This document shows positions 7,507-30,325 of a DNA stretch of 35,609 nucleotides, piece by piece. Origin of the DNA: Methanobacteriota archaeon (GTDB taxonomy: Archaea > Halobacteriota > Methanosarcinia > Methanosarcinales > Methanosarcinaceae). Numbering within the stretch: position 1 is the first letter of the stretch; each line of letters starts with the position of its first letter. The stretch is taken from assembly GCA_016841625.1 (NCBI GenBank), contig JAENYU010000012.1, positions 1 to 35,609 on the forward strand. The letters are read 5' to 3'. The notes beneath the pieces are model-generated. The model saw nothing but the letters and a program-made list of their open reading frames with translations. It was not told the origin of the DNA and ran no database searches. Made by a program: the position numbers and the translations under genes.

Positions 7507-7840
7507 GCAAAAACAGAAGAAATTCCAACATAAAAATTACTTTGTCCAACTCTCCGCTCTCCCCGCAAGAATCCTGTATTATTTTAAGAGGGCATCATAT
7601 TTCTATTATACCTCCGCATCTCTCGCTTTTCCCTGTCTTCTCACTGTAAAAGCAAAGGATTGCTTTGTTGAAAAAATATATTAGACAATCATCTTTATTG
7701 AAAAAAGAAGTAAGGGGTGAATAAGATGTGTATTATTTGAGAGCAGAGGAATTACTAAGGAGCAGGGGAAGGGTGGGGGAATTACTAAGGAGCAGGGAAA
7801 TTCGGGGGTCAGGGATTGAAGAATAATTCATCTTACCTCA
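7507..7840. other. Gene-free interval between suf promoter and IscB element
   Basis: No gene seen. It holds two short tandem duplications: about 31 bp around 7665-7715 (TTGAAAAAA shared) and a 30-bp period at 7748-7800 (see separate entry). Confidence 0.5.
7748..7800. repeat. 30-bp-period direct repeat
   Basis: The block GGAATTACTAAGGAGCAGGG occurs at 7748 and again at 7778 with nearly identical flanks. It lies just outside the probable right end of the IscB element. Confidence 0.85.
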
Positions 7841-7889
7841 GCAGGAGACCCCTTCCTCGACAGCCGAAGGCTGGCAGGTGGGGGAGGAG

Positions 7890-7911
7890 AATGCGTACAC
7901 TTTCCCGCATT
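7890..7911 (-). terminator. Hairpin just after iscB
   Basis: AATGCG and CGCATT form a 6-bp stem starting 7 bases beyond the iscB stop. It may end the iscB transcript or belong to the element end. Confidence 0.4.
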
Positions 7912-7917
7912 ATCTCC

Positions 7918-9261
7918 TTAACAAACTACTTTAGGATCAAGCCAGCAAAATCCTTTGCCGTACTTGATTAGCTTTACTTTTTTTGGCGTTAAACTCTTTT
8001 TTAGCCCTTTGAAGGTTACTGATTTCCCTTTGTTGTGCATTCCTGCGGAATAGTACAACTTTCCTTCAACCTCTACCAAATCCATTGGCTGAAGAGGGTA
8101 TCTCTGTTTCCTGATACTGTAGCGTCCTTTCTTGATTCTTTGTTGCCTGTACTTTCTCAGGTTTTCCGTGTTAAGGTTCTTACTCCTGCAAGTCCGTCCA
8201 GAGTTCAGGTCTTGACCTGATTTGGTAGAGCCGTCTCTTGAATCAATGTACTTCGAATCATAGAATTTCGACAGACTACGGTTATTCCGGCGAATCTGCC
8301 TGATTATGAAAGGTTGATGTCTGATCTGCTTATCCACATTAACGGTGCAGAAAGCATCGTTGGCATGGGTCTTTTCAAGACCAAGGGTTAACCTTCTCAT
8401 TTTGGTCAGGTAACCGTAGGTAGCTTCGACATTCTCATAAGTTTGTTTCAGGATATCGAACACTTTCAGCTTGACCGTGTTCATAAACATAGCGTCCTTG
8501 AACCCTCTCGTTTTTGGCCTCCACGCCAACAGAAAACCCTTATGGTTTTTCGGGGTATGACACCGGGAGCAGAGGGTAATCAGGTTAGCGGGGCGGTCAG
8601 AGCCTCCGTTGCACCGGTAAACGATATGATGAATGTCGAGTCTGCGATATTTCCCGGCAGTGACAGGACAATCAGGATTCTGGCATTTGTAACCGTCCCG
8701 GTGCAGGATGTAGGCACGAAGGTTCTCATAACCCTTTTTTTCGCCTTCCTGATACTGTTTGCCTTTGATATCAGGATTCTTGATTTTCTGGATGTCAAAC
8801 TTGCCAATCTCAACTACAATTTTCGTAATTGGTAGAAGTTTGTACAGTTTTGCAACAAACCTCACATGACTGTCAAGCTTATGCCGGATCGAAGGAGCAA
8901 ACCAACCTTCCTTATTGGTGTTCTGGTCAAATCCCGGTTTTCGGTGTCTTAACCTGTTTCTCCGAGTCCTCCGGTACATTGTTCTTTCCTGGTTTCTCTC
9001 CACCATTCCGGTAAGAAGCTGGATTTCTCCCGCTATCAATTCCTCCTTCTTGGTAACTGCCGAAAACCCGATATTGGAGTAGCCGGTATCAATTCCGAGA
9101 GTGATTGGCTGAGTAGCATTCCCGGCAGGATAGAGTAACCTAATGGTAAATGGGATTCTTTGCACCACTTCCGCCTTGCCCGATTTTAGCAAAACTCTTG
9201 CCTTTCTCGGTGTGGTCGGCATCAATGGGTTTCCGTTATTGTTTATGACAAATACTTTCAA
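7918..9261 (-). CDS. iscB: IscB, RNA-guided HNH/RuvC nuclease
   Basis: 447 aa. The N-terminal PLMP domain (NNNGNPLMP, residues about 7-15) marks IscB. A split RuvC nuclease follows: RuvC-I GIDTG with Asp near 58, an Arg-rich bridge helix (RRTRRNRLRHRK) near 96-108, RuvC-II VVEIGKF with Glu near 151. Inserted next is an HNH domain with Zn-type Cys pairs and the catalytic DIHH near 209-212, then RuvC-III HANDA with His near 299 and Asp near 302. All catalytic positions are present, so it should be active. IscB proteins cleave DNA guided by an omega RNA encoded just upstream and are ancestral to Cas9. The best start is TTG at 9261: GGAGG lies 8 bases upstream and the protein then begins at the PLMP domain as in relatives. 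A GTG 39 bases earlier would put that ribosome binding site inside the gene. Confidence 0.92.
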   Translation of the reverse strand: MKVFVINNNGNPLMPTTPRKARVLLKSGKAEVVQRIPFTIRLLYPAGNATQPITLGIDTGYSNIGFSAVTKKEELIAGEIQLLTGMVERNQERTMYRRTRRNRLRHRKPGFDQNTNKEGWFAPSIRHKLDSHVRFVAKLYKLLPITKIVVEIGKFDIQKIKNPDIKGKQYQEGEKKGYENLRAYILHRDGYKCQNPDCPVTAGKYRRLDIHHIVYRCNGGSDRPANLITLCSRCHTPKNHKGFLLAWRPKTRGFKDAMFMNTVKLKVFDILKQTYENVEATYGYLTKMRRLTLGLEKTHANDAFCTVNVDKQIRHQPFIIRQIRRNNRSLSKFYDSKYIDSRDGSTKSGQDLNSGRTCRSKNLNTENLRKYRQQRIKKGRYSIRKQRYPLQPMDLVEVEGKLYYSAGMHNKGKSVTFKGLKKSLTPKKVKLIKYGKGFCWLDPKVVC

Positions 9262-9300
9262 AGTTTTGTCCTCCTGAATGGAGTTAGTCCACTTCGCCAC

Positions 9301-9502
9301 TGTTATACTGGCTTGTCAGTAACCCTTCCACTTCTCCTACCTCTCAGAGATGTTTAGTCGGGTCGAAATCTCCGTGGACGTGTGGAGTATCCACGAATAT
9401 CGTGACCAGTATAACGTACTTAGGCTAATCAACTAGGGCTTTTGCAAGCCCCTTACTCTAAAATCTAAGCCATACGGCTTAGATTTTAGGGAGGGGTAGT
9501 TG
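9301..9502 (-). ncRNA. Candidate IscB omega (guide) RNA
   Basis: In known IscB loci the omega RNA is encoded immediately 5' of iscB, with the guide at its 5' end. Here that region is strikingly structured. A long-range 10-bp stem (9302-9311 with 9406-9415, GTTATACTGG/CCAGTATAAC) encloses small hairpins at 9392-9404 and 9382-9394 (mutually exclusive). Further 5' in the RNA, a junction closed by TCAACTA/TAGTTGA (9428-9434 with 9496-9502) holds a 6-bp hairpin (9435-9450) and the 14-bp hairpin 9457-9488. No open frame crosses it. The strand, extent and guide position are inferred from the family. Confidence 0.55.
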
Positions 9503-10163
9503 ACTCTAATTCAAGGCTCATCCCGGCTCTGATTTCCAAATATTCTGTCTGGAACAGCTTTTTTATTTCTTCTTTATGGGTTGTGCAGTGCCCGGCTGCA
9601 ACAAGTTCCAGCCCTTCAAGCCTTTCGAATTCCTTGCTGTCGTGCAGGCCTCCGATAATTCCCTTTACCTTTCCAAAGTTAAGGGCAGAGTCCATGATTG
9701 CTGAAAGACCAGGGTGGGTGCAGCCGGTCAGCACATAAAGTCCCTTCCCGGAATCGAGGAGGAGGGACTGTTCTTTGATTTTATTTCCCAGTTCCCCGGT
9801 ACTCCTGACTCCGGGGATTATTTCCCGGCTTTCCCTAATTTCCACAAGCCTGGCTCTTTTTGCAATTTCAGCCCTGATGTTTTTTGAAAAGGAAGCGGGA
9901 ACATATACCGTAATTCCGGGACTTGCCCGGAGGACTTCGGGCACCCCTCCGATGTGGTCCCAGTGCTGGTGGGATAGGACAAGTTTCCGGATGCTTGTGG
10001 GTTCGATCTCCAGTTTTTTAAGGTTTTCAAGAAGGAGCCCGCCGTCCCATCCGGTATCAAAAAGGAGCGTCTCTTCTTCAGTTTCAAGCAGGGCTGCAAA
10101 GCCCCAGCTCCCGGTGAATCCCGGTTTTGCCTCGTTGTCGTATACTATGGTCAGTCTGAGCAA
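9486..10163 (-). CDS. Metallo-beta-lactamase-fold hydrolase
   Basis: 225 aa. The metal-binding motif HQHWDH is near residue 65, followed by further family positions (TGCTHPG near 165, GGLHD near 190, GHCTTH near 211). This group includes proteins annotated as dihydropterin ribofuranosylaminobenzene phosphate synthase-like hydrolases; the substrate here is unknown. The only available start is TTG at 10163, with GAAGG upstream and a stop shortly before it in frame. It lies 20 bases after NrpRI and is likely co-transcribed. The last residues (ESTTPP) and the stop are encoded by the palindromic left end of the IscB element, so the native C-terminus has probably been replaced by a few residues. 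Confidence 0.85.
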   Translation of the reverse strand: MLRLTIVYDNEAKPGFTGSWGFAALLETEEETLLFDTGWDGGLLLENLKKLEIEPTSIRKLVLSHQHWDHIGGVPEVLRASPGITVYVPASFSKNIRAEIAKRARLVEIRESREIIPGVRSTGELGNKIKEQSLLLDSGKGLYVLTGCTHPGLSAIMDSALNFGKVKGIIGGLHDSKEFERLEGLELVAAGHCTTHKEEIKKLFQTEYLEIRAGMSLELESTTPP

Positions 10164-15127: not shown

Positions 15128-18100
15128 TTAAGAAACGGTTATGTATGCGTATTTTGTTTCCGTATCCGTCCCTTCAGGATTGCTAACCGTAAGTGCTACG
15201 GCGTAGCTCCCCGCCCTCTTATATATGTGGTAAGGGGCTTTTCGGGTTGATGTGTATCCATCTCCAAAGTCCCATTTCCAGGCGCTTGGATCCCCTACAC
15301 TGTTGTCTTTAAACAGGACTGTCAGGGGCGCGCTTCCGGATCTCCTATTTGCGGAAAAATCAGCCCTCAAAGACCCGGTTGATTCTTCCACGCTTATATA
15401 TCCGTACTTTATCTCCGTGTCCGTCCCGGCTGAATTGCTTACTGTAAGCTTTACTGCATATGTCCCTGCTTTTTCATATGTGTGTTCGGGGTTCTGCCTG
15501 GTTGATGTGTATCCATCCCCGAATTCCCATATCCAGGCTGTGGGAGTTCCGGCACTTGTGTCTGTAAACCTGACCGTTAGTGGGGTCTGTCCTATCCTCC
15601 TGTCTGCAGAGAAATCCGCTTCCGGGGAATTAGGGGTGTCTTCCACGTTTATGTACCCGTACTTTGTCTCCGTGTCCACACCTGCCGAATTGCTTACCGT
15701 AAGCTTTACTGTGTAGCTTCCTTCTTTTTCATATGTGTGTTCGGGATTCTGGAGGTTTGATGTGTATCCGTCTCCTAATTCCCATTTCCATGCTGTTGGG
15801 GTACCTGTACTTTCATCTGTAAATTTCACAACCAGCGGCGCCTCTCCAGTTCTCCTGTCCACGGAATAATCTGCTGCCGGGAGTGCTGCTGATTCTTCCA
15901 CATTAATGTATCCGTACCTTGTCTCCGTGTCCGCACCTGCCGAATTGCTTACCGTAAGCTTTACTGTGTAGCTTCCTTCTTTTTCATATGTGTGTTCGGG
16001 ATTCTGGAGGTTTGATGTGTATCCGTCCCCGAATTCCCATTTCCAGGCTGTTGGGGTACCTGTACTTTCATCGGCAAAACTGACCTTTATCGGGGCTTTT
16101 CCTTCTGTGAAGTCCGCGGAAAAGGCCGCATTCGGGGATTCAATACTGTTCCCAACGTTAATGTAAGCGTACTTTGTCTCCGTGTCCGTCCCCTCTGCAT
16201 TGCTCACGGTAAGTTTTACTGTGTAGCTTCCATCATTCTTGTAGATATGGTAGGGGGTTTTCCTCGTTGATGTGTATCCGTCCCCGAATTCCCATTTCCA
16301 GGCTGTCGGGGTTCCGGTACTGGTGTCTTTATACAGGACTGTAAGGGGTGCGCTTCCTGACATCCTATTTGCGGAGAAATCGGCATTCAGGAGTCCTGCT
16401 GATTCTTCCACACTTATGTACCCGTACTTTATTTCCGTGTCCGTTCCTGCCGAATTGCCTACTATAAGCTTTACTGTATAGCTTCCTGCTTTTTCATATG
16501 TATGTACAGGATTTTGCAGGTTTGATGTGTATCCGTCCCCGAATTCCCATTTCCAGACTGTGGGAGTTCCGGTACTGGTGTCTGCAAACCTGACCGTTAG
16601 TGGGGTCTGCCCCTCCTTCCTGTCTGCAGAAAAGTCCGCTACCGGGAGACCGGGGGAATCTTCCACGTTTATGTACCCGTACTTTATCTCCGTGTTCTCT
16701 CCGGCTGAATTGCTTACTATAAGCTTTACTGTGTAGCTTCCTGCTTTTTCATATGTGTGTGCAGGGTTCTGCTGGGCGGAAGTATATCCGTCTCCGAATT
16801 CCCATTTCCAGGTCGTTGGATTTCCTGTGGATTCGTCCGTAAACAGGACCGTAAGCGGAGCCTGCCCCATTCTTTTATCTGCAGAGAAGTCAGCAACAGG
16901 TGGATCTATTGTCGGATAGGGGTTGCTGCCGGTGGTTGTGAAGGCTTTGATACATACGTTAGAATTCGTGTATCTTTTTGTGGCATCTGTCCAGAATTTT
17001 CCGTCCGAACTGATGTAACTCTCTCCTGGATTTGCCGTGGCTTTACTGCTCCAGCCGGTGACTGGTGACTCAAGGGCAATCGGGTAGAAATAGCCGGGGG
17101 TAGCAAGCTTTATTGCTACTGAAAATTTCTGTCCTTTGCGGAGTGGGACTCCGCTTTCCAGATGCACGGTGTGGTAACCGGCAGCAGGGATTGTTCCGCT
17201 TGCCGTGTAAACCGGGCCTGCAGAGTTAACGGGTCCGTTTGCAGGGTCTTTGTAGACATAGAGTGTGTAATCCGTGTTTGAGTCCGTTGTATAGAAACTC
17301 ACAGCTTCCAGGGTTTCATCGGCTTTTGCACTGAAGATGTTTGCGCCCCAGGCACTGCTTGTTCCGTAACCGGCTGTCTTTACCCAGCCAAGGGGGTCGT
17401 ACTGGTAAACTCTTTCATAATTGCCTGTTTCTTCGGCAGTAAAGACGGCATTGTTCCTGCCTATTTTCGAATCATAGTAGGAAATGTAGAAGTATCCTCT
17501 GTCCCCCCAGTAGGATCCCCAGGTATTCTTTATTATAAATGCCCCGTCTCCCGTGGGTGTCCGGGAGAATTTGTTCCGGTCGTAAGAATCGTCCCAGCCC
17601 ACAATGGCTACTGCATGGTTGGCAGCCGAGGAGCCTGAATAGTAATAACTGTCTGTCACGGAGTTGTAGTAGCTGCTGCTATAGTACATTGTTGTGTACA
17701 GTGCTCCGTAGTTCTGGACTGCCCATTTTATGTCTTCGTTGTCCAGTGCACCGGCCCTGTTGGGCAAAAAAAGGACATCCTGGACATGTTTCTTCGCTGG
17801 CAGGTTGGTTGGCGAGTATCCGGAAATGGCAGAGTAAGGGTCATCACTTTCGTCAACAGGCCCACTCCAGCGGGCTAGATAGGCAGTTGACTTGAAATGG
17901 TTTCCTCCGTCATCATGCTCACGGTCGAGACCTTCCGGATACGCTGAAGAAAGCAGGTTTTTCATGTTATTTTCCGAAAAGTCCCTGGTTTCTTCCGGTT
18001 TCAGGTATGATTCAAGGGATGAGTAGGTGGTGAATGCCCAGCAGACTCCTGCAGACCCCTGGCTCTTTACGGGGGTGACCCTGTCTAGGGTGCGAAGGTC

Positions 18101-18532
18101 GTAGTAGGAAGGGGTTCCGACGTCTTCAGAATTGGTATATATGACCATCCCTTCCACTTCTACCGGGCTTTCTTCCAGGGAATTTGAGATGTCCGCCAGG
18201 TGGGAAAGGTCAACAGGAGCAGGAACTAGGCCGGTGGGGGGTTCAGGGGATAAACCTTCAAGAGTATTGTAAACGTACTCTATTGGGACAATTTCTTCTG
18301 TAAAAAGCCTGACCTGATTTTCTTTTTTTACTCTTTCCTGATATTCTGAAAATTCGGGGTTGTGTGGTGCGAGAGTGGATCCGTCTGCTGTATTTTCTGC
18401 GTCAGAAAAACCGGACAGGTCTTTTATCTCTGTATTTTGTAAAAGAAGGTCTGAATCTGCCGACGCCGTTAAAGGCCCCGGGAAAAGGCAGATTATCAGA
18501 AGTATACTTAGGGTTTTTAATACATTTTTCAT
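15128..18532 (-). CDS. Secreted papain-like protease with seven PKD domains
   Basis: 1134 aa. A signal peptide (MKNVLKTLSILLIICLF, residues 1-26) precedes a peptidase C1A domain with the active-site block SQGSAGVCWAF (Cys near 164), His in NHAVAIVGW (near 306) and Asn in KNTWGSYWG (near 336), all intact. A beta-rich lectin-like domain spans about 385-535. Seven PKD repeats of about 85 residues (255 bp) then run to the C-terminus, each with WKWEFGDGYTS-type cores. It should act outside the cell as a surface or secreted endopeptidase. Start: the second ATG (18532) has GGAG six bases upstream, formed by the codons after the first ATG at 18544. PKD units 2-3 and 6-7 are most alike as pairs, suggesting block duplication. 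Confidence 0.92.
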   Translation of the reverse strand: MKNVLKTLSILLIICLFPGPLTASADSDLLLQNTEIKDLSGFSDAENTADGSTLAPHNPEFSEYQERVKKENQVRLFTEEIVPIEYVYNTLEGLSPEPPTGLVPAPVDLSHLADISNSLEESPVEVEGMVIYTNSEDVGTPSYYDLRTLDRVTPVKSQGSAGVCWAFTTYSSLESYLKPEETRDFSENNMKNLLSSAYPEGLDREHDDGGNHFKSTAYLARWSGPVDESDDPYSAISGYSPTNLPAKKHVQDVLFLPNRAGALDNEDIKWAVQNYGALYTTMYYSSSYYNSVTDSYYYSGSSAANHAVAIVGWDDSYDRNKFSRTPTGDGAFIIKNTWGSYWGDRGYFYISYYDSKIGRNNAVFTAEETGNYERVYQYDPLGWVKTAGYGTSSAWGANIFSAKADETLEAVSFYTTDSNTDYTLYVYKDPANGPVNSAGPVYTASGTIPAAGYHTVHLESGVPLRKGQKFSVAIKLATPGYFYPIALESPVTGWSSKATANPGESYISSDGKFWTDATKRYTNSNVCIKAFTTTGSNPYPTIDPPVADFSADKRMGQAPLTVLFTDESTGNPTTWKWEFGDGYTSAQQNPAHTYEKAGSYTVKLIVSNSAGENTEIKYGYINVEDSPGLPVADFSADRKEGQTPLTVRFADTSTGTPTVWKWEFGDGYTSNLQNPVHTYEKAGSYTVKLIVGNSAGTDTEIKYGYISVEESAGLLNADFSANRMSGSAPLTVLYKDTSTGTPTAWKWEFGDGYTSTRKTPYHIYKNDGSYTVKLTVSNAEGTDTETKYAYINVGNSIESPNAAFSADFTEGKAPIKVSFADESTGTPTAWKWEFGDGYTSNLQNPEHTYEKEGSYTVKLTVSNSAGADTETRYGYINVEESAALPAADYSVDRRTGEAPLVVKFTDESTGTPTAWKWELGDGYTSNLQNPEHTYEKEGSYTVKLTVSNSAGVDTETKYGYINVEDTPNSPEADFSADRRIGQTPLTVRFTDTSAGTPTAWIWEFGDGYTSTRQNPEHTYEKAGTYAVKLTVSNSAGTDTEIKYGYISVEESTGSLRADFSANRRSGSAPLTVLFKDNSVGDPSAWKWDFGDGYTSTRKAPYHIYKRAGSYAVALTVSNPEGTDTETKYAYITVS

Positions 18533-18544
18533 AATGAGCTCCAT

Positions 18545-19383: not shown

Positions 19384-20172
19384 TCAAACCCTGGTTATCG
19401 GCCTTGCCACATTCTTGTAGTGATCGAAAAGGTCTCTGCCCCATTTGAGTGCGCTGTCGTCGAAGCTTACCAGATTGTGGTTATAGTAGATGCCGCTGTT
19501 GCAAAAGAGGGAAATTGCCATGAACTTTTCAGTAACAATGCTTGAGGCAATTTTCATGTTATTGTTGTTGCAGACGTAGAGTTTTGTATATTTCAGGTTC
19601 AAGAAGTGTTCAAGCTCCCGCCTGTAGTCGTTAAGCATCCTGTCATAGACGTATTCCGTAAACACCAGGGAAATTTCCGTCCCCTTGGCGGCAAGTTCTA
19701 TACAAAGAGACGGGTAGATTGGCAGGAAAAACGAGGAAGTGATCATCACTTTCCCTGATTCTGCCAGGTGGTTCACAACTTCTTTCGGGTATTCAAAAAC
19801 GTGGTTTCGGTCGGGGTTTACCTCGAGATAGTCTCCAAGTTTCCCGATTTCGTCCAGAAATCCCGGTGGGATCGAGTTCATGTCCTGGTTTACCCAGTAC
19901 TCATGGTTTTTATCAAAAACATTGAAAGTTTCGAGGATGTTTTTCATTTTGGGAACAAGGATTTCTCCTATACTGGACAGTTTGTAGAGCCTGTTATTTT
20001 CAACTATAAGGTCATGCTTCATCAGGATTTTTATCTGGGTCATTATCGGACTTGAGCGGACATTAAGCGTACTTTTTATTTCTTCAATGTTCTTGGGTCC
20101 GTCAAGTAGCAGTGTAAGGAGGCTTTTTCTTTTTTCCGAAAGAAAGAGTACGTCCAGTAATGATGACTCCAT
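19384..20172 (-). CDS. FilR1/Msr-type methanogenesis regulator, copy 1
   Basis: 262 aa. The N-terminal ArsR-like winged helix (residues about 1-75: SEKRKSLLTLLLDGPKNIEEIKSTLNVRSSP) is followed by the FilR1 (DUF1724) effector domain. This family includes the Methanosarcina Msr proteins, which activate methanol methyltransferase operons. The gene is paralogous to its upstream neighbour and lies on the same strand as mtaCB, so it is a likely mtaCB regulator; the specific Msr type cannot be decided from this window. The start is the ATG at 20172 with GAGGGA six bases upstream. TATATAAATA (about 20217-20229) gives a predicted leader of about 20 bases, so it has its own promoter. Confidence 0.9.
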   Translation of the reverse strand: MESSLLDVLFLSEKRKSLLTLLLDGPKNIEEIKSTLNVRSSPIMTQIKILMKHDLIVENNRLYKLSSIGEILVPKMKNILETFNVFDKNHEYWVNQDMNSIPPGFLDEIGKLGDYLEVNPDRNHVFEYPKEVVNHLAESGKVMITSSFFLPIYPSLCIELAAKGTEISLVFTEYVYDRMLNDYRRELEHFLNLKYTKLYVCNNNNMKIASSIVTEKFMAISLFCNSGIYYNHNLVSFDDSALKWGRDLFDHYKNVARPITRV

Positions 20173-20216
20173 TAAGATTCCCTCTCTCTTATAAATCACC
20201 TTATTTATATTCAAGG

Positions 20217-20638: not shown

Positions 20639-21424
20639 TCAGATCTTGTTAACCTGTTTGGACAGGGTCTTGAAATAATCATACAATTCCTGGCCCCAGC
20701 GAAGGGCTCTGGGGTTAAAGCTCATTATGAACTGCTGGTCGAATTTCCCATTTTTATCAAAAAGTCCGAGGAGCATGATTTTATCGGTAATTGTGATCTC
20801 TGTTGGTTTTGTCCCTTCTCTGGAAACGTAGAGGCTCACATTTTCCATTTCCATAACTTCTTTTATCATATCGGAATGTTCGCTTGAGAGGTGGTCCCAG
20901 ACTGACTGCGTAAAGTTCAGGGAAAGTTCGACTTCTTTTCTTCCGAGTTCCACGTACAGGGGCAGGTAAGATGGGTTGAAATAAGATGCAAAGGTTGCCA
21001 CACGCTTTGAGTTTGCCATATTGTCAATGATTTTCTGGGCCGGCTCGTAAATATGGTTCAGGTCCGGTTCTATCAGGATGCAGTCTTCGAGTTCGGAGAT
21101 CCTTTCCAGGAGGTTGCGGGGAAGTGCGTTCAGGTCATGTCCTGTCCAGTAATTATTGTTCTGTTCCACTACGTCAAGGGCGCTGATCAGCGGCTTGACC
21201 TTCTTGACAATGAATTCCCCCAGCAAGGTCAGGCTGTACATCTTATCTTCCTGGACAATCAGGTCACTATCTATCAGTTTCTTGATCTGGGGGAGGATTG
21301 ATGTGGCTGTGACATCCAGTTCTTTCCTGACCTCGTCAATACTTTTTGACCCACTTTCAAGTAGCAAGAGCAGGTTTTTTCTTTTATCGGAGCGGAAAAC
21401 CAAATCAACCAGTGAAGATTCCAT
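20639..21424 (-). CDS. FilR1/Msr-type methanogenesis regulator, copy 2
   Basis: 261 aa. Same architecture as the neighbour: winged helix (SDKRKNLLLLLESGSKSIDEVRKELDVTATSI) then FilR1 domain, ending in the shared motif ALRWGQELYDYF. The two are clearly a tandem duplication that has diverged throughout. Methanosarcina methanol operons are known to be controlled by pairs of such proteins. The ATG at 21424 has AAGGAG close upstream. It follows the second HyuA-like gene by 185 bases. Confidence 0.9.
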   Translation of the reverse strand: MESSLVDLVFRSDKRKNLLLLLESGSKSIDEVRKELDVTATSILPQIKKLIDSDLIVQEDKMYSLTLLGEFIVKKVKPLISALDVVEQNNNYWTGHDLNALPRNLLERISELEDCILIEPDLNHIYEPAQKIIDNMANSKRVATFASYFNPSYLPLYVELGRKEVELSLNFTQSVWDHLSSEHSDMIKEVMEMENVSLYVSREGTKPTEITITDKIMLLGLFDKNGKFDQQFIMSFNPRALRWGQELYDYFKTLSKQVNKI

Positions 21425-21609: not shown

Positions 21610-23541
21610 TTACGTGTCGTCTGAAAATCCCGGAGCGCAGATCCCGACAAAGGTCATTTTAGTTTCCATGGGGGTGTGTTTCCATTCCGGGAGGGTCAGG
21701 TATTCCACGCTGGTGTTTATCTTTATCGAACCTTCCGGGAGGCCGAAATTTTTCAGCGAATTCTGAATAAGTTCTTCTCCTGTTTTCTGGGCATATTCCA
21801 CCGCGACCCTGTACTGATCGAATTTCTTCCTCCCGAGTGGGGAAAATACCAGGAAATTCTGGTCCGGTTTATCCATGGATGCGGGCCTGATCATTATTTC
21901 TATCCGTTTGATGCCTTTTCCTACGAGAGCCCCCACTGCATTGCCTACCTGGGCATATTCCGGGACTATGATCTCAGCATCGATCAATTTCTTAAGTTCC
22001 CCGTAGTAGGTCTTTACGGGCCCCCCTAGCATGACTATGGGGATTTTCAGCTTATACTGGGCAGGGATTTCCCCTTCAAGCATCTTTTTTATCCCGTCTT
22101 TCCCCCTGCCTTCCATGACAAAGGACATCAGGCTGTATGCCATGTTCCTGGCCATTTGCTGCTTTACTTTTTTGCAGAAGTTGTGGGGGTCCAGGTGTGT
22201 AAAGCGGGCAAGTTTTCTGGCTCCTATCTGGGCAGTCTCGACATCCCATTCCGTGTAGTCCCCGAGGACATGGAGGGCATCTGTGGGGGTGAAGCCGATT
22301 ACCTGGATCACCCGTTGCTTGATTAAAGAGTCAAGGACTGCGGGGGAAGGGAATCTTTTCATTCTACTCAAAATATCATTAACGGAGAGGGGCTCGTCTC
22401 CTATCACTTCAAGTAATTTTTCCTCCCCTTCCGTGGGGTTTATTGGCAAATTCCCGGTCCTTACAAAGAACTTGGTGGGCTGGATATGTTCGTTGAGCAT
22501 TGTCCTCAGAGGCACCGGGTTCTTTTCCAGTTTTTCCCTGAAACCCGGATAATTTTTAGCAGCCACGCAGAGAGGCATGACTCTCCTTGGCCCTATCCGC
22601 GTATATTTTTTGAACCATACGTGGCTGTCTCCCCCACTGGCGGATGTTTCCATTTTAATTGCCTTTACCCTGGTCTGCCAGTCTCCTACGATAGCACCTC
22701 TCTCACAAAGCTCAGGAACCCCGTTTTTTATGATGGATACGTCGGTACTTGTCCCTCCAACGTCGATTACTGCGCAGGTATCAAGCCCGGAGAGGTGGGA
22801 TGCACCCATGATACTGGCGGCGGGGCCTGAAAAGATGGTTTCTATCGGGCGCAGTTTCGCTCCTTTTATATCTATTACCGAGCCGTCGCACTTCAGCATG
22901 AGCACTTTCGCATCAAGTTTTCTTCCCTTAACTTCGGCAATTATGGAGTGGATGAACTGGTAGGTGATGGGGATGAGCTGGGCGTTCAGGACTGCGGTTG
23001 CTGCCCTTTCGTAAGCTCCAAGTTCCTGGGTCAGCTCATGCCCGCAGACCACGGGATGCCCTGTGAGTTTAAGGAGCACTTCTTTTATCCTGAGTTCATG
23101 TTCCGGGTTCCGGGTGCTGAAATAGGCCGAAACGGCAAATGCGGACACTTTCTTTTTCATACTCAGGGCAAACTGTTCCACTGCATTGATGTCCAGGGGG
23201 TGGAGTTCATCTCCGTTGCTGTCATGCCCCCCTCTTAGGGTGATGCAGTGTTCTGCGGGAAGCTCTTTTGGAATCGTGTAGTCCCCCACAAGGATCAGGC
23301 CCACAGGGTACCCTGTTTTTTCCAGAATAGTGTTGGTTGACAGCGTTGTGGAGACGGACACAAGTTTTACTTTCTTCAAGTACTTCGGATTCAACTTATC
23401 GATAGAATTTCGAATCCCGGTCATCAGGTCCGGATAGGTGGTAAGTGCTTTCCCGGAATCAAGGATCTTACTGTCGGAATCCCTTAAGATCACTGTATCG
23501 GTGTAGGTGCCACCCGCGTCAATACCCAGACTATATTGCAT
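21610..23541 (-). CDS. HyuA-like ASKHA ATPase, copy 2
   Basis: 643 aa. It belongs to the hydantoinase A/oxoprolinase family with an actin-like ATPase fold. Phosphate 1 is GIDAGGTYTDTVI (residues 6-18), the FSGPAAS block is near 235, and phosphate 2 is VIDVGGTSTDVSI near 257. A predicted winged-helix-like segment (about 365-410) follows. No HyuB partner gene is present, unlike true hydantoinase or acetone carboxylase loci, so the substrate is unlikely to be a hydantoin. It is very similar to the next gene upstream and has its own TATA box (AAATATATATCAC near 23625). Given the mtaCB neighbourhood, ATP-driven activation of a corrinoid protein is a possible role (inference). Confidence 0.85.
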   Translation of the reverse strand: MQYSLGIDAGGTYTDTVILRDSDSKILDSGKALTTYPDLMTGIRNSIDKLNPKYLKKVKLVSVSTTLSTNTILEKTGYPVGLILVGDYTIPKELPAEHCITLRGGHDSNGDELHPLDINAVEQFALSMKKKVSAFAVSAYFSTRNPEHELRIKEVLLKLTGHPVVCGHELTQELGAYERAATAVLNAQLIPITYQFIHSIIAEVKGRKLDAKVLMLKCDGSVIDIKGAKLRPIETIFSGPAASIMGASHLSGLDTCAVIDVGGTSTDVSIIKNGVPELCERGAIVGDWQTRVKAIKMETSASGGDSHVWFKKYTRIGPRRVMPLCVAAKNYPGFREKLEKNPVPLRTMLNEHIQPTKFFVRTGNLPINPTEGEEKLLEVIGDEPLSVNDILSRMKRFPSPAVLDSLIKQRVIQVIGFTPTDALHVLGDYTEWDVETAQIGARKLARFTHLDPHNFCKKVKQQMARNMAYSLMSFVMEGRGKDGIKKMLEGEIPAQYKLKIPIVMLGGPVKTYYGELKKLIDAEIIVPEYAQVGNAVGALVGKGIKRIEIMIRPASMDKPDQNFLVFSPLGRKKFDQYRVAVEYAQKTGEELIQNSLKNFGLPEGSIKINTSVEYLTLPEWKHTPMETKMTFVGICAPGFSDDT

Positions 23542-23739: not shown

Positions 23740-25746
23740 TCAAGCTGCTATGGAATTTTTCGGGATTCCCACACCTACGTAAACAAGCTTCGTTTCCATT
23801 GGTGGGCCTGTCCATCCTTTGGGTGCAAGATTTTTTTTGCTGACTTCTATCCTTATATCTTCTTTTTCGAGTCCCGCATTTTGCATATAATCCATAACAA
23901 GCTGCTTTCCGGTTTTTTCTGCGTATTCCAGGGCTTCTGGATGTTTTTCGAATTTTTCCCTGCCCAGAGGGGAAAAGACGATGTAGACGTTTTTCCTTTC
24001 CTGATTCAGGGTGTCCCTTATAATCTCGCTTTCGGCTCCTCCTTCGGAACTGCCTGCCGCCAGTTCTTCGGATTTCGGGACAACTTTTGTTTTTATGAGA
24101 ATCTCAATCCTCTTGATGCCTTTCCCTACAAGGGCTCCTACGGCATTTCCAACGTCGGCATGTTCCGGGACCCTGAAATCGGCATCAATGAGTTTTTTCA
24201 TGTCTTCGGCGTAAGCCCCTACAGGTCCTCCCAGGAGGATGACCGGGATCTCTATCCTGAAGCGGGTAAAGTGGCTGTTCGAAAGTACCCTGTCAATTTC
24301 GTTTCTGGGCATTCCTTCCACGAGATAGGCAATAAGGTCCTGGGCAATGTTAAGCGCAACCTTTTGCTTCACTTCCGCACTGAACTTTTCAGGGTCCTGT
24401 TTCAGCAGTCTTCCGAGCAAGGATGCCCCAACCTTTGCAGCTTCGACATCCCAGTCTGTATATTCTCCCAGGACGTGCAGGGCGTCTGTGGGGGTGAAGC
24501 CTATTGCCTGGATCAGCCTTTTCTGGATAAGGGAATCCAGAACAAAAATGGACGGCCTCTTTTTCAGTTTCACGATAAGGTCATCGTAGGAAACGGGTTC
24601 CTTTCCGATATGCCTGTAGACCTCTCTTTCCCTATTCGTCAATTCGATGGGCTTGAAATCAGTCCTTATGAAAAATTTGGTTGACTGGACGTTTTCGCCC
24701 AGGTGGCTTTTGGAGACCCTGTTCTTTCTCAGTTTGTCCAGAAAATTAGGGTACATTACGGATGCCCTGCAGAGGGGAATGACCCGGCGGGGGCCCACGT
24801 GGACTCTCTCATGCTTTACCCATATGTGACTGTCTCCTCCGGTGGCTGAAGTCTCCATACGGATGGCTTTCACGCGGGTCTGCCATCCCCCGACGACCGC
24901 CCCTGAACTGCTGAGTTCCGGGAGCCCGTTTTGCATCATTGCAACATCCGTACTCGTACCTCCAACGTCGATTACTGCGCAGGTCTCAAGCCCCGAGAGG
25001 TGGGATGCCCCAACAAGGCTTGCGGCGGGTCCGGAAAAGATGGTCTCGATGGGTTTTTCCAGGGCTTCTTCGATTCCCACCACCGAGCCGTCGCATTTCA
25101 GCATTAGCATGTTTGCTTCGATCCCCCGGATTTCGCACTCCTCTATGATGGACCTGGTGAATTTGTGGGTGATGGGGATGAGCTGGGCGTTTAAAAAAGC
25201 GGTAACTGCCCTTTCATAGGCACCGAGGTCCTGGGACAGTTCGTGCCCGCAGACAACGGGGTGCCCCGTAAGTTCTTTCACTGCCCTCTTGACAGTGAGC
25301 TCATGCTCCGGATTGCGGGTGCTGAAATAAGAAGAAACGGCAAAAGCCGAGACCTTATCTTTTATCTTCAGGGCAAATTCTTCAACGGCTTCCAGTTCCA
25401 GGGCTTTTAGCTCTTCCCCGTCGCTGTTATGTCCGCCCTCCACGGCTATCCAGTAGTCGCTGGGGAGGTCTTTGGGAATCACGTAGTCCCCCACCATGAT
25501 CAGCCCTACGGGAAAGCCGGTCTTTTCCAGAATGGTGTTTGTTGAAAGGGTGGTTGAAACGGATACCAGTTTTATATTCTTTAGATACCCCGGGTCCAGT
25601 TTGTCAATGGCGTTCTTCATTCCCGGGAGGGGATCGGGGTAGGTGGTAAGCGCTTTGCTGGAGGCGACTACCACTCCGTCAGAATCCCTCACTATGACCG
25701 CATCCGTATAGGTCCCTCCGGCATCGATTCCCAGGCTGAATTGCAT
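23740..25746 (-). CDS. HyuA-like ASKHA ATPase, copy 1
   Basis: 668 aa, with the same motifs as copy 2: GIDAGGTYTDAVI, FSGPAASLVGA, VIDVGGTSTDVAM, METSATGGDSHIW, and the shared stretch IGFTPTDALHVLG. The main difference is an insertion of about 20 residues near 575 (Ala/Glu/Ser-rich). The conserved end METKLVYVGVG matches METKMTFVGI in copy 2. The pair are a tandem duplication. The ATG at 25746 has GAGGT about 10 bases upstream and a strong TATA box 35-45 bases upstream. No HyuB gene is nearby. Confidence 0.85.
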   Translation of the reverse strand: MQFSLGIDAGGTYTDAVIVRDSDGVVVASSKALTTYPDPLPGMKNAIDKLDPGYLKNIKLVSVSTTLSTNTILEKTGFPVGLIMVGDYVIPKDLPSDYWIAVEGGHNSDGEELKALELEAVEEFALKIKDKVSAFAVSSYFSTRNPEHELTVKRAVKELTGHPVVCGHELSQDLGAYERAVTAFLNAQLIPITHKFTRSIIEECEIRGIEANMLMLKCDGSVVGIEEALEKPIETIFSGPAASLVGASHLSGLETCAVIDVGGTSTDVAMMQNGLPELSSSGAVVGGWQTRVKAIRMETSATGGDSHIWVKHERVHVGPRRVIPLCRASVMYPNFLDKLRKNRVSKSHLGENVQSTKFFIRTDFKPIELTNREREVYRHIGKEPVSYDDLIVKLKKRPSIFVLDSLIQKRLIQAIGFTPTDALHVLGEYTDWDVEAAKVGASLLGRLLKQDPEKFSAEVKQKVALNIAQDLIAYLVEGMPRNEIDRVLSNSHFTRFRIEIPVILLGGPVGAYAEDMKKLIDADFRVPEHADVGNAVGALVGKGIKRIEILIKTKVVPKSEELAAGSSEGGAESEIIRDTLNQERKNVYIVFSPLGREKFEKHPEALEYAEKTGKQLVMDYMQNAGLEKEDIRIEVSKKNLAPKGWTGPPMETKLVYVGVGIPKNSIAA

Positions 25747-26115: not shown

Positions 26116-27108
26116 TTAATTTCTGGATATAATTGGTATTAATTTTTTTATATTAAGTTTTTCCCTATTCTTTTCAGGGGACCTGCTTATTTTTCTGAAG
26201 GGGCAATTCCTTCCCTGATCAGGTTCCGCTTTAATCAGGGTATAAGTTTCTTCCCCATACGCGGCTTTTAGCCTCTCTTCCACCCTGCCCGATATTCCGA
26301 CTGCTTCCCGGATGTTCAGGGAGTCTTTAACGCTGATGGAAACATTAATGGCAATGTCCTTCCCGATTCTCCGGGTCTTGAGCCCGCGGCAGGATATAAC
26401 GTCTTCCGTTTCGCTTATTATTTTCCTGATGTTCCGGTTGTTTTCCTCGTCAAGGGAAGCTTCTATCAACTCATCGGCAGTTCCGTAAAGAACCCTGCCC
26501 GAAGCTTTCAGCACTAAGAGGCTCAGGAAGACCGCTGCAAGGGAATCGGCGGCTGCCCATCCCCTTCCCGGGAGGAACGTGCATCCTATGCCGAGGAGCA
26601 CGCACCCTGAGAAGAAAATCTCCTCCCGGAGGAAACGGTATTTTGCAGGGCTCCTGCCGCCTGGGTAAAGCTGCCCGTTTTCCTTCTCATTGTAACGCAG
26701 AAGGAACCCCTTTGATAAGGGGGAAAGTGCAGCTGCAAAAAAAGCAGAGATCCCGGGAGTTACCGGGTCCTGGCCCTTTATGAGTATAATAAGCTCTCCC
26801 GTACCCCGGGAGAGGATCTGAAACCCTGCCAAGAGCAGCATAACTGCCCAGGCACCCATAAAGAGGGTCGCAACTTTCCCGTGCCCGTAGTTGTGGGACA
26901 CGTCTTCGGGTTTGAGGGCGATGTGATGGTCCAGGAGTTTCATGGACCCGGCTGCGAAATCCTAAAAAGAGCGGACTGCATCCGCGAGGAGTGCCGTACT
27001 GTTTCCGAAAAATCCTGCGCCCAGTTTGAAAACAGCCAGCATCAGGTTCAGGAGCAGGTCTTTGCCATGCATGCCCTTTGCTTTCTCTAATGTATCTTCC
27101 GCTCTCAT
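26116..27108 (-). CDS. CDF-family cation transporter with an in-frame TAG
   Basis: 330 codons with a TAG at codon 49 (26962-26964). Before it the frame reads a CDF first helix and start of the second (LMLAVFKLGAGFFGNSTALLADAVRSF). After it the family continues without a shift (DFAAGSMKLLDHH, SHNYGHGKVATL near 65). The TAG falls in the conserved SLxD stretch of helix 2. Further helices and a cytoplasmic domain (IRKIISETEDVISCRGLKTRRI) follow. CDF proteins export divalent metals; here the expected His/Asp metal ligand of helix 2 is Arg. In Methanosarcina TAG encodes pyrrolysine, so the gene may be read through. None of 24 other checked genes in the window uses TAG as stop. Alternatives are a nonsense pseudogene or a sequence error. 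The start ATG at 27108 is the best guess; a GTG lies 12 bases earlier and GGAGGAGG is farther upstream. Confidence 0.75.
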
Positions 27109-27497: not shown

Positions 27498-28082
27498 TCA
27501 GATTGGGGCCACCGTCTTTCCAAAGATTTCATTCAGTACCATGGCAAGAGCAGTGTACAGGGCTCCAAGGCCCATAATAAGTCCAACAATGCCGGCAACT
27601 GAGAGCAGCCCGGTGCTTCCGGTTGCGTTTACAACTGCCAGCATCATAAACAATGTAAACAATGTAACAAATACAAACTGGATCGCCCTGACTCCGATCT
27701 TCATCGTAGCAATCAGCATGACAAAGGTGTAGACACCCCAGATAAAGAGGTATGCAGCCATTGCGGTTGCGGAGGGTGTTTCAACCCAGCCCAGTGCAGG
27801 CATGATAATAAGTCCTGCAAGGGAGAACCAGAACAGTCCGAAGGCTGAAAATGCAGTGCCTCCAAAGACATCGCCTTTTTTCCAGGCCATCATCCCTGCA
27901 AATACCTGTGCAAAACCTCCCAGGAATATCGCCATGGATACGATCATGGATCCTACCGGGTAAACCCCGATGTAGCTCAAACTCAACAGGACAGCAGACA
28001 GGCCAAGGCCTGTGAACCCTAGAGGAGCGGGGTTCGCTGTCTTGTCTATAATTAAAGTTGCAACTCCTTCGTTTTCGGTCAT
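27498..28082 (-). CDS. SatP/AceP-family acetate transporter
   Basis: 194 aa membrane protein of the GPR1/FUN34/YaaH (AceTr) family, with the signature NPAPLGF near residue 17 and six predicted transmembrane helices. Family members carry acetate, succinate or related acids, or ammonium in some annotations. In an acetate-using methanogen, acetate uptake is the natural reading. The start is the ATG at 28082 with GGGG upstream; a TTG directly before it is less likely. It follows mtaB by 65 bases across a T-rich tract and may be expressed by partial read-through from mtaCB. Confidence 0.88.
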   Translation of the reverse strand: MTENEGVATLIIDKTANPAPLGFTGLGLSAVLLSLSYIGVYPVGSMIVSMAIFLGGFAQVFAGMMAWKKGDVFGGTAFSAFGLFWFSLAGLIIMPALGWVETPSATAMAAYLFIWGVYTFVMLIATMKIGVRAIQFVFVTLFTLFMMLAVVNATGSTGLLSVAGIVGLIMGLGALYTALAMVLNEIFGKTVAPI

Positions 28083-28108
28083 CAATATACCCCTGAAGCC
28101 ATTTTTCC

Positions 28109-28147: not shown

Positions 28148-29533
28148 TTAGAGCCCGTAGTTTTCAGTTCTGAAAACTGCAACTTCTTCCTTGTATTTTG
28201 TTAGGCAGTCGCTCATGAACTTGTCGCTGTCATCGGTGAGGCCTTCGAGGTCGGCCTTGACCTTTGCAAGGGCGTTTGTTTCGAACCTTGTGAGTTTGAG
28301 CTTACCGGATGCGACACCTTCTCCGACAATGTTGCAGCACTCGATGGCTGCGTTCTTGGCACGGAGGTAGTTGTCCTCTCCGTCCTTGACAATTGCCTGG
28401 CCCACCCTGTAGGCGTTGTCGTAGGCAAGCACGTAGCCCTGTGGGTCTCTGTACTTGTCAGAGAGTGTGAGGATGTCTCTGAGGTCCTTTGCCTTCCCGA
28501 GTTTCAGGGAAGTGTTCATCATTGAACAGTCATAGGCGAGGGTCTCGACCCAGCACTGTACGGTGGTACCGCCGAATTCCCCGTGGTATTCAACGGATTC
28601 GTTGGACCAGAGGTCACAGCACTGCATGGTCAGGTTACCCATGACGTCAGAGTGTGCACAGGTTGAGGTCTTACCTTCCTGAGAGATCGGGACCCCTGAG
28701 ATGGACTTGATGATGGTGTTCTCGTATCCGCAGTCCTTACCCGGACCGGTTGCACCGGCTTCGTATGCACAGAGGGACCTTCCTGCAGCAATTGACCTTG
28801 CAACGATTGCGGTGGTGTGGGCAAGGTTCTTGTCGAGCAGTCCGCCTGCGATGAACATTGCGGTGTTTGCCTGGGCACAGTCTGTGTCACCTGCTGCTAC
28901 TACGCCGTTCTTCTTTGCGACGTCGGCAATGTCGGACCAGATCATTTCCATGTCCATGGAACCGAGCACACCGATACCGAAGAGGATACCTGCTGTGTCG
29001 TTTCTCAGGATAGAGTAGTCGAAGACTTCCTTACCACCCATGCTTTCTACGGAAAGCAGGTCTGCACCGTTCTGGGCGCACTGTTCGAAAGCTTCCATAA
29101 AGACGGAGTACTTGTCTCCTCTGAGCTGGAGGTAGTCACGGTCTTCACGGATGTCACCGATGGTGTGCCGCAGTGCGCACTTGATGCCGTATTCATCGTG
29201 GTACTCTTCCATGATGGTCTTCTGGGCGTGAGCCACAGCGCCTCCCCACTCGGGGTTGTTGGACATCTGTTCCACGTGTTCGGTTTCAAGCACAACGGAA
29301 GGTGCACCGATCTGGACCATCCTTGCCATTGCGTCGGTGGTGATCCTCTCATATTCCTTGACAAGCTTTTCCTTGGACTTGCCTGCCTGGGGTCTTGGGG
29401 CGTAGTTAAGTTCGGGGGTTGCGTAGCCTGCACCGATCTCGAGACCAAGGCCTGCCTTTACGGGGAATTTACAGTTCCCGAAAAGCATGTCGTCTGCTTT
29501 AGCATAAGCCATTGAAGTGTATTTCTTTACCAT
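28148..29533 (-). CDS. mtaB: MtaB, methanol:corrinoid methyltransferase
   Basis: 461 aa. MtaB transfers the methyl group of methanol to the corrinoid of MtaC, the first step of methanol-dependent methanogenesis in the cytoplasm. The zinc ligands known from M. barkeri (Glu164, Cys220, Cys269) are present here as Glu163 (SVESMG), Cys219 (DTDCAQ) and Cys268 (KDCGYEN), a one-residue offset, so the enzyme should be active. Length matches the family. The ATG at 29533 has GGAGG 8 bases upstream. It follows mtaC by 15 bases and the two form one transcript. Smooth codon use suggests high expression. Confidence 0.98.
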   Translation of the reverse strand: MVKKYTSMAYAKADDMLFGNCKFPVKAGLGLEIGAGYATPELNYAPRPQAGKSKEKLVKEYERITTDAMARMVQIGAPSVVLETEHVEQMSNNPEWGGAVAHAQKTIMEEYHDEYGIKCALRHTIGDIREDRDYLQLRGDKYSVFMEAFEQCAQNGADLLSVESMGGKEVFDYSILRNDTAGILFGIGVLGSMDMEMIWSDIADVAKKNGVVAAGDTDCAQANTAMFIAGGLLDKNLAHTTAIVARSIAAGRSLCAYEAGATGPGKDCGYENTIIKSISGVPISQEGKTSTCAHSDVMGNLTMQCCDLWSNESVEYHGEFGGTTVQCWVETLAYDCSMMNTSLKLGKAKDLRDILTLSDKYRDPQGYVLAYDNAYRVGQAIVKDGEDNYLRAKNAAIECCNIVGEGVASGKLKLTRFETNALAKVKADLEGLTDDSDKFMSDCLTKYKEEVAVFRTENYGL

Positions 29534-29548
29534 TATTGCTCCCTCCGA

Positions 29549-30325
29549 TTAGTGCTTGTGGAATTCCTCTCTTAATTTCTCTATATCGTCTCCGCCGCCT
29601 ACAATGAAGTTTGCAATCTTCACTGCGTCAGAGGCTTCTTCACCATAGACTCCGAGGTCATACTGGGACACGAAGTCCTGGTTCACAGCACCGCCACCAC
29701 ATGCGAAGGGGAGCTTGATGCCCTTCTCGAGGAGCTTGTCGTTGATTTCCTTGAAGGCATACATGGTTGTTGTCATGAGAGCAGTACCTGTTACCATCAG
29801 GGGTTTCTCTTTCTCGACTGCTTCGATGACTTCGTCAACAGGACAGTCCCTGCCGAGGTCGACTACTTCGTAACCGCTTGCTCTCAGGAGGGCAGCAACA
29901 ATGTTCTTACCGATGTCGTGAACGTCACCTTCTGCGACGTGGCAGACAATCTTGCCCCTGGGTTCAGGCACTTCAGTGGTCTGTGTCTTACAGAATTCTA
30001 TACCATCCAGCATAGCGTCTGCGGACATCATGACGTTGGGGAGGAAAATGATCCCGTCATCGTAGAGTTTGGATACAACACCCATCCCTGTCATAAGGGC
30101 TTCGTTGATAAGGGCGATCGGGTCTTTGCCTGCGTCGATTGCGGCTTTGAGCCCATCAATCACATCGTCTTCTTCACCCTCGTAGATTGCCTTTGCAATC
30201 GGGTAGATCTGTTCATCCTTCGGGTAAAGCTCTTCTGCAGCTTCGTCAGGAGTCATTTCCTTTTCGAGGGCGACGTTATAGCGTACTAATATGCCATCGA
30301 TGTCTTCCAGTTTCAAATCCAACAT
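29549..30325 (-). CDS. mtaC: MtaC, methanol-specific corrinoid protein
   Basis: 258 aa. An N-terminal helical methyltransferase-partner domain (about 1-115) is followed by a B12-binding Rossmann domain with DVHDIGKNI, where His136 matches the known cobalt ligand. It carries the methyl group from MtaB to MtaA. Oxidation of its cobalt inactivates it, so an ATP-dependent reactivation factor is needed. The start ATG at 30325 has GGAGG 7 bases upstream. Upstream is a 1.16-kb region without genes, consistent with a long, regulated leader as I recall for mtaCB transcripts. Confidence 0.98.
   Translation of the reverse strand: MLDLKLEDIDGILVRYNVALEKEMTPDEAAEELYPKDEQIYPIAKAIYEGEEDDVIDGLKAAIDAGKDPIALINEALMTGMGVVSKLYDDGIIFLPNVMMSADAMLDGIEFCKTQTTEVPEPRGKIVCHVAEGDVHDIGKNIVAALLRASGYEVVDLGRDCPVDEVIEAVEKEKPLMVTGTALMTTTMYAFKEINDKLLEKGIKLPFACGGGAVNQDFVSQYDLGVYGEEASDAVKIANFIVGGGDDIEKLREEFHKH

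Follow-up and report, generated by a model that had tools for sequence, protein, structure and literature searches.

Pyrrolysine (Pyl) is catalytic, and conserved across phyla, in the methyltransferases MtmB, MtbB and MttB. An archaeal code in which all TAG codons are read as pyrrolysine has reportedly been described by Kivenson et al. in Science in 2025, and Heinemann et al. in PNAS in 2009 are said, going by the title of their paper, to put the in-frame TAG of Thg1, the tRNA-His guanylyltransferase, down to neutral evolution. This in-frame TAG, carried by the Thg1 of some Methanosarcina, is named in PMC8211752 and in PMC4153887. According to the former, a review of 2021, no Pyl proteins other than transposases and Thg1 were known apart from the methyltransferases, and the latter, a study of 2014, predicted 16 more in Candidatus Methanomethylophilus alvus, one of which was labelled a transporter family protein. 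The words "transporter" and "cation" are absent from the main text of a 2013 study of Pyl candidates (PMC3639795), and a literature search which combined pyrrolysine with cation diffusion facilitator (CDF) found no paper, the newer subscription papers lying outside its reach.

The stretch of DNA which we analysed, called the window in what follows, comprises 35,609 nucleotides from a member of the Methanosarcinaceae. It contains on its minus strand (27108-26116) a CDF-family gene which, when one TAG is read through, encodes 330 residues and ends at TAA. The features of this gene are the following:

26116..27108, minus strand: CDF-family gene (Cation_efflux and ZT_dimer), 330 codons with a TAA end, identified by translation through the TAG, profile match and purifying selection before and after this codon
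26962..26964, minus strand: in-frame TAG at codon 49, predicted pyrrolysine (in Methanosarcina Ser, encoded by TCG in the nearest orthologue), identified by translation and orthologue alignment
26941..26943, minus strand: ATG codon 56, 7 codons 3' of the TAG, possible re-initiation site in a rival model

A preliminary description of this DNA had claimed that the frame is broken by one TAG alone and that the similarity to the family extends to either side of it. Both statements were borne out: in the translation of 27108-26116, codon 49 is the sole TAG and there is no frameshift, while the Cation_efflux profile (PF01545) matches residues 18-214 of the read-through product, a span which includes the TAG, and ZT_dimer (PF16916) follows at residues 219-296. 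The scores of the CDF profiles exceed the curated cut-offs (82.2 bits against a cut-off of 26.6 for PF01545, 133 against 82 for TIGR01297). The TAG is therefore placed, as in a Pyl protein, inside a continuous conserved coding frame. An AlphaFold model (three sequences) had a mean pLDDT of 42, too low for use in fold searches.

The identical TAG is present at codon 49 in all four genomes of the genus, in a frame which is otherwise open and at a locus which is syntenic in the four; the CDF genes of the other three genomes show 83-85% identity. The presence of a TAG at one and the same codon in four genomes far exceeds chance. It does not amount to four independent gains, since the four genomes inherited one event. 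A sequencing error was ruled out as the source of the TAG by the four separate assemblies, one of which (G001, closed) is a single contig of 4,211,468 bases, and a recent decay was ruled out by the fact that the TAG is common to four syntenic genomes. We searched 112 genomes of the family for orthologues at a threshold of E <= 1e-70 and found them only in the genus itself, in 15 genomes of a second genus, which we take to be Methanosarcina, and in a single genome belonging to a third. The comparison of orthologues which the preliminary description had proposed gave a clear partition: TAG49 is found in all four genomes of the one genus and is confined to it, and the 16 orthologues outside, those of Methanosarcina included, all have Ser at this position. 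The codon of the nearest orthologue (G069) is TCG, which differs from TAG in a single base. Such a sense codon, together with a patchy distribution of the TAG, is the mark of an acquisition of the Thg1 type.

The preliminary description had also wished to see the genome checked for pylT and pylS. All four genomes possess pylS, which encodes PylRS, with the tRNA-Pyl gene pylT (anticodon CTA) directly upstream of it, that is, the tRNA-Pyl(CUA) and the PylRS which the host of a Pyl protein must have. In G000, the ORFs which come after pylS can be recognised as pylB, pylC and pylD, names which rest on gene order and sequence, not on a profile search. As positive controls we used the methyltransferases: MtbB and MttB genes with a single TAG occur in all four genomes, and such MtmB genes in three of the four. 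The CDF gene resembles them in having one in-frame TAG, in the same genomes and with the same pyl machinery, but its predicted Pyl is limited to one genus and stands in place of a Ser. One MttB copy appears to have, in two genomes (L075 in G001, L076 in G002), a TGA besides its TAG.

How rarely TAG serves as a stop was estimated on 17 stretches of 20 kb of the closed congeneric genome G001, in which ORFs of at least 180 aa were considered. Four out of 177 end with TAG, the share of TAG among the TAG, TAA and TGA triplets of the sample being 18%. One of these is mtmB, a true Pyl gene, and another is pylB; the third is an ORF which by eye looks like a transposase, and the fourth is a gene disrupted by an insertion. 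TAG is almost never used as the end of a gene in this genus. In the window, none of the other long ORFs ends with TAG, as the preliminary description had stated for the 24 other genes which it checked; it had seen there the TAG avoidance of pyrrolysine-using Methanosarcina, and in this the avoidance of TAG as a stop holds, whereas the genome collection places the organism and its relatives in a genus of their own. In a scan of the sampled stretches for further TAG-interrupted genes, the candidates examined, mtmB and the CDF gene aside, were by eye antisense shadows of genes. The TAG at the end of pylB is found in two genomes (L065:9868-9870 and L063:11022-11024, both on the plus strand), and the next ~15 codons are alike, which probably reflects an overlap with the start of pylC.

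For the four genomes of the genus we then estimated omega with a codon model fitted by maximum likelihood. Omega is 0.38 for codons 1-48 (omega=1 rejected, P 4e-5), 0.18 for the TM1-TM2 core, codons 18-57 (omega=1 rejected, P 7e-8), and 0.25 for the codons 3' of the TAG (omega=1 rejected, P 4e-18), and a model with one omega for the two sides could not be rejected (P 0.12). In the absence of selection, about 12 nonsense mutations would be expected over the four-genome tree; beyond the TAG, none is present. The constraint on both sides and the lack of any further nonsense mutation point to one protein with a codon in its middle, not to a decaying gene. Hence, we concluded that the CDF gene is, with high probability, an intact gene and not a broken one.

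The gene belongs to a block with the order thermosome-cobW-mtaC-mtaB-yaaH-CDF-oxoprolinase-oxoprolinase-Msr-Msr, which is nearly unchanged in the eight Methanosarcina genomes looked at. Its neighbours in the window are:

29549..30325, minus strand: mtaC, corrinoid protein, cluster neighbour
28148..29533, minus strand: mtaB, methanol:corrinoid methyltransferase, cluster neighbour
27498..28085, minus strand: GPR1/FUN34/yaaH-family membrane protein gene, upstream, in the conserved cluster
23740..25746, minus strand: hydantoinase/oxoprolinase-like gene, downstream, cluster neighbour
21610..23541, minus strand: second hydantoinase/oxoprolinase-like gene, cluster neighbour
20639..21424, minus strand: FilR1_middle-domain regulator (Msr type), cluster neighbour
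19384..20214, minus strand: second FilR1_middle-domain regulator, cluster neighbour

Between the window and the eight Methanosarcina genomes, the CDF protein is 49-57% identical; for mtaB, yaaH, the oxoprolinases and the Msr genes, most identities lie at 78-93%. Between G000 and G001, omega is 0.28 for the CDF gene, and in ten other genes of the window it amounts to 0.04-0.16. The CDF gene is the loosest of the genes compared in the cluster, and yet it is constrained. Other features of the region may be mentioned. The Methanosarcina genomes which we inspected also have two tandem oxoprolinase/hydantoinase-like genes beside mtaCB. An RRXRR and HNH protein of the IscB type (7918-9300 and 9283-9504, minus strand) has a HEARO RNA directly upstream, and G001 lacks the segment ~7770-9500 at its syntenic locus, as if this had been inserted. 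Likewise absent from the syntenic place in G001 is the gene at 15128-18544 (minus strand) for a papain-like protease of 1138 aa with lectin-like and seven PKD domains.

In FieF/YiiP the ligands of site A include D47, D51 and H155. Residue 49 of the CDF protein, placed by alignment to FieF/YiiP, falls on A50 of the Shewanella protein, between D47 and D51. The preliminary description, which had put the codon next to the metal site, was therefore right as to its position. In this alignment, site A of the CDF protein reads Arg46, Asp50, Phe159 and Glu163: it has neither the Asp/Asp on TM2 nor the His/Asp on TM5. As these pairs are a trait of the zinc-exporting members, their loss speaks against an ordinary zinc exporter and not against CDF homology. 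The match to FieF/YiiP (PDB 5vrf, 8f6k) covers residues 22-298, ZT_dimer included, and the Asp, His and His of the TM2-TM3 loop (D69, H72, H76) are kept; the difference lies in D47 and H155 of site A, to which Arg46 and Phe159 correspond. Position 46 is Arg in every Methanosarcina orthologue examined and His in the outlying G004, and the position of His155 is Phe or Ser in the subfamily. Judging by these alignments, the loss of the canonical site A is old and common to the subfamily, with Arg46 as a subfamily trait, and the protein is probably no ordinary Zn/H antiporter. The Arg at the metal site, in which a hint of decay had been seen, is ruled out as a mark of decay by its conservation in the intact Methanosarcina orthologues. 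With the canonical site already lost in the subfamily, a catalytic role of Pyl is unsupported.

A different in-frame TAG was found in the same gene in two Methanosarcina species (G081, L023; G108, L083). It is located in the C-terminal domain (YG-TAG-GIYTLIKAEP), at a site which is Gln, Glu or Lys in the relatives (in G033 the codon is CAG) and after which the residues are conserved. Both species have pylS, and in the tree they are on a branch separate from the genus of the window. This other place and this separate branch mean that the CDF gene gained a TAG at least twice, and the occurrence of a TAG elsewhere in two Methanosarcina orthologues suggests tolerance rather than a site-specific role. 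The case is similar to that of Thg1, whose gene likewise encodes no methyltransferase, has one TAG, occurs where pylT and pylS are present and fits a change of a sense codon in one step; it differs in that Thg1 is a soluble tRNA enzyme, while the CDF protein is a membrane protein with a second, independent TAG in other species. It can also be compared to AGI86346.1 of Ca. Methanomethylophilus alvus (PMC4153887, Table 7), which is annotated as a transporter and whose Pyl was likewise predicted from sequence alone. However, AGI86346.1 is known from one species, has 289 aa and is not described as a CDF protein, whereas the CDF TAG is found in four species of another order and is accompanied by a selection test.

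We consider it likely that the gene produces a full-length CDF-type membrane protein with a predicted Pyl49, its TAG being tolerated and of near-neutral origin. The TAG would have arisen once, before the split of the four species, probably by the change of one base from TCG (Ser) to TAG, and its decoding by pyrrolysyl-tRNA(CUA) would yield the full-length protein with Pyl in the middle of TM2. It would be tolerated because the whole Pyl machinery is present, because TAG stops are rare and because the CDF gene is the fastest-evolving of the cluster genes compared. The likeliest reading of the sequences is that the inserted residue would be Pyl, that read-through would be efficient and that Pyl would bring no new function. 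A codon derived from Ser in one step, a gene under loose constraint and a second TAG elsewhere in it fit a near-neutral acquisition better than a role at the metal site, and Pyl probably arrived at residue 49 by chance. We infer from the omega of the gene itself that a single codon would often stay unchanged over the four-genome tree without any selection for Pyl; hence, the conservation of the TAG alone is no sign that Pyl is needed. The possible pyrrolysine of the preliminary description finds support in the conserved TAG, in pylS and pylT, in the rarity of TAG stops and in the constraint on both sides of the codon. We looked 3' of the TAG for a consistently stable RNA structure (PYLIS) and found none (z-scores -2.3, -1.4 and 0.0); this downstream element has been described as not obligatory (PMC4153887).

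It is unlikely, in our opinion, that Pyl is read through and useful, be it as a long reactive side chain of TM2 beside D50 or as a switch tying synthesis to the supply of pyrrolysine. The TAG has indeed lasted in four species, codon 49 does lie between the equivalents of the site-A ligands D47 and D51, and the gene is part of a methylotrophy cluster. Against this, the subfamily has already lost the canonical site A (position 46 is Arg, and His155 is replaced by Phe or Ser), the Methanosarcina orthologues work with Ser, two of them have their TAG elsewhere, and the retention of one codon would be expected from the omega of the gene even if Pyl were not selected for. We find it quite improbable that Pyl49 was recruited as a functional residue of TM2 or as a supply switch; if it was, this would be the first case of natural Pyl playing a role in a membrane protein.

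One could also take the TAG for a true stop. A peptide of 48 residues would then end there, re-initiation at ATG codon 56 would give a protein of 275 residues, and the products would work as a split or shortened protein. A long frame is open from this ATG, and Met is found at codon 56 in the four genomes of the genus and is absent from the other orthologues. We nevertheless hold this to be very unlikely: TM2 would be halved, codons 18-57 (omega 0.18) are as constrained as the rest, no clear ribosome-binding motif is seen by eye at the usual distance 5' of the ATG, and TAG hardly serves as a stop in the genus. A pseudogene with a premature stop, the alternative which the preliminary description had taken seriously, could be suspected from the stop inside a conserved frame, from an evolution faster than that of the neighbours and from the Arg which replaces a metal ligand. 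It is hardly credible in view of the purifying selection before and after the TAG and of the four genomes which show no second lesion where ~12 nonsense mutations are expected, the Arg being shared with intact orthologues.

With the CDF protein, a membrane protein whose Pyl is predicted is added to the short list of natural Pyl proteins outside methylamine metabolism, and it comes with conservation in four species and a selection test on either side of the predicted Pyl codon. A TAG gained twice at different places makes this gene a good natural case of how Pyl-decoding cells let stop codons drift into their genes. Finally, it must be noted as a warning that annotation may present genes of this kind as pseudogenes or as truncated.
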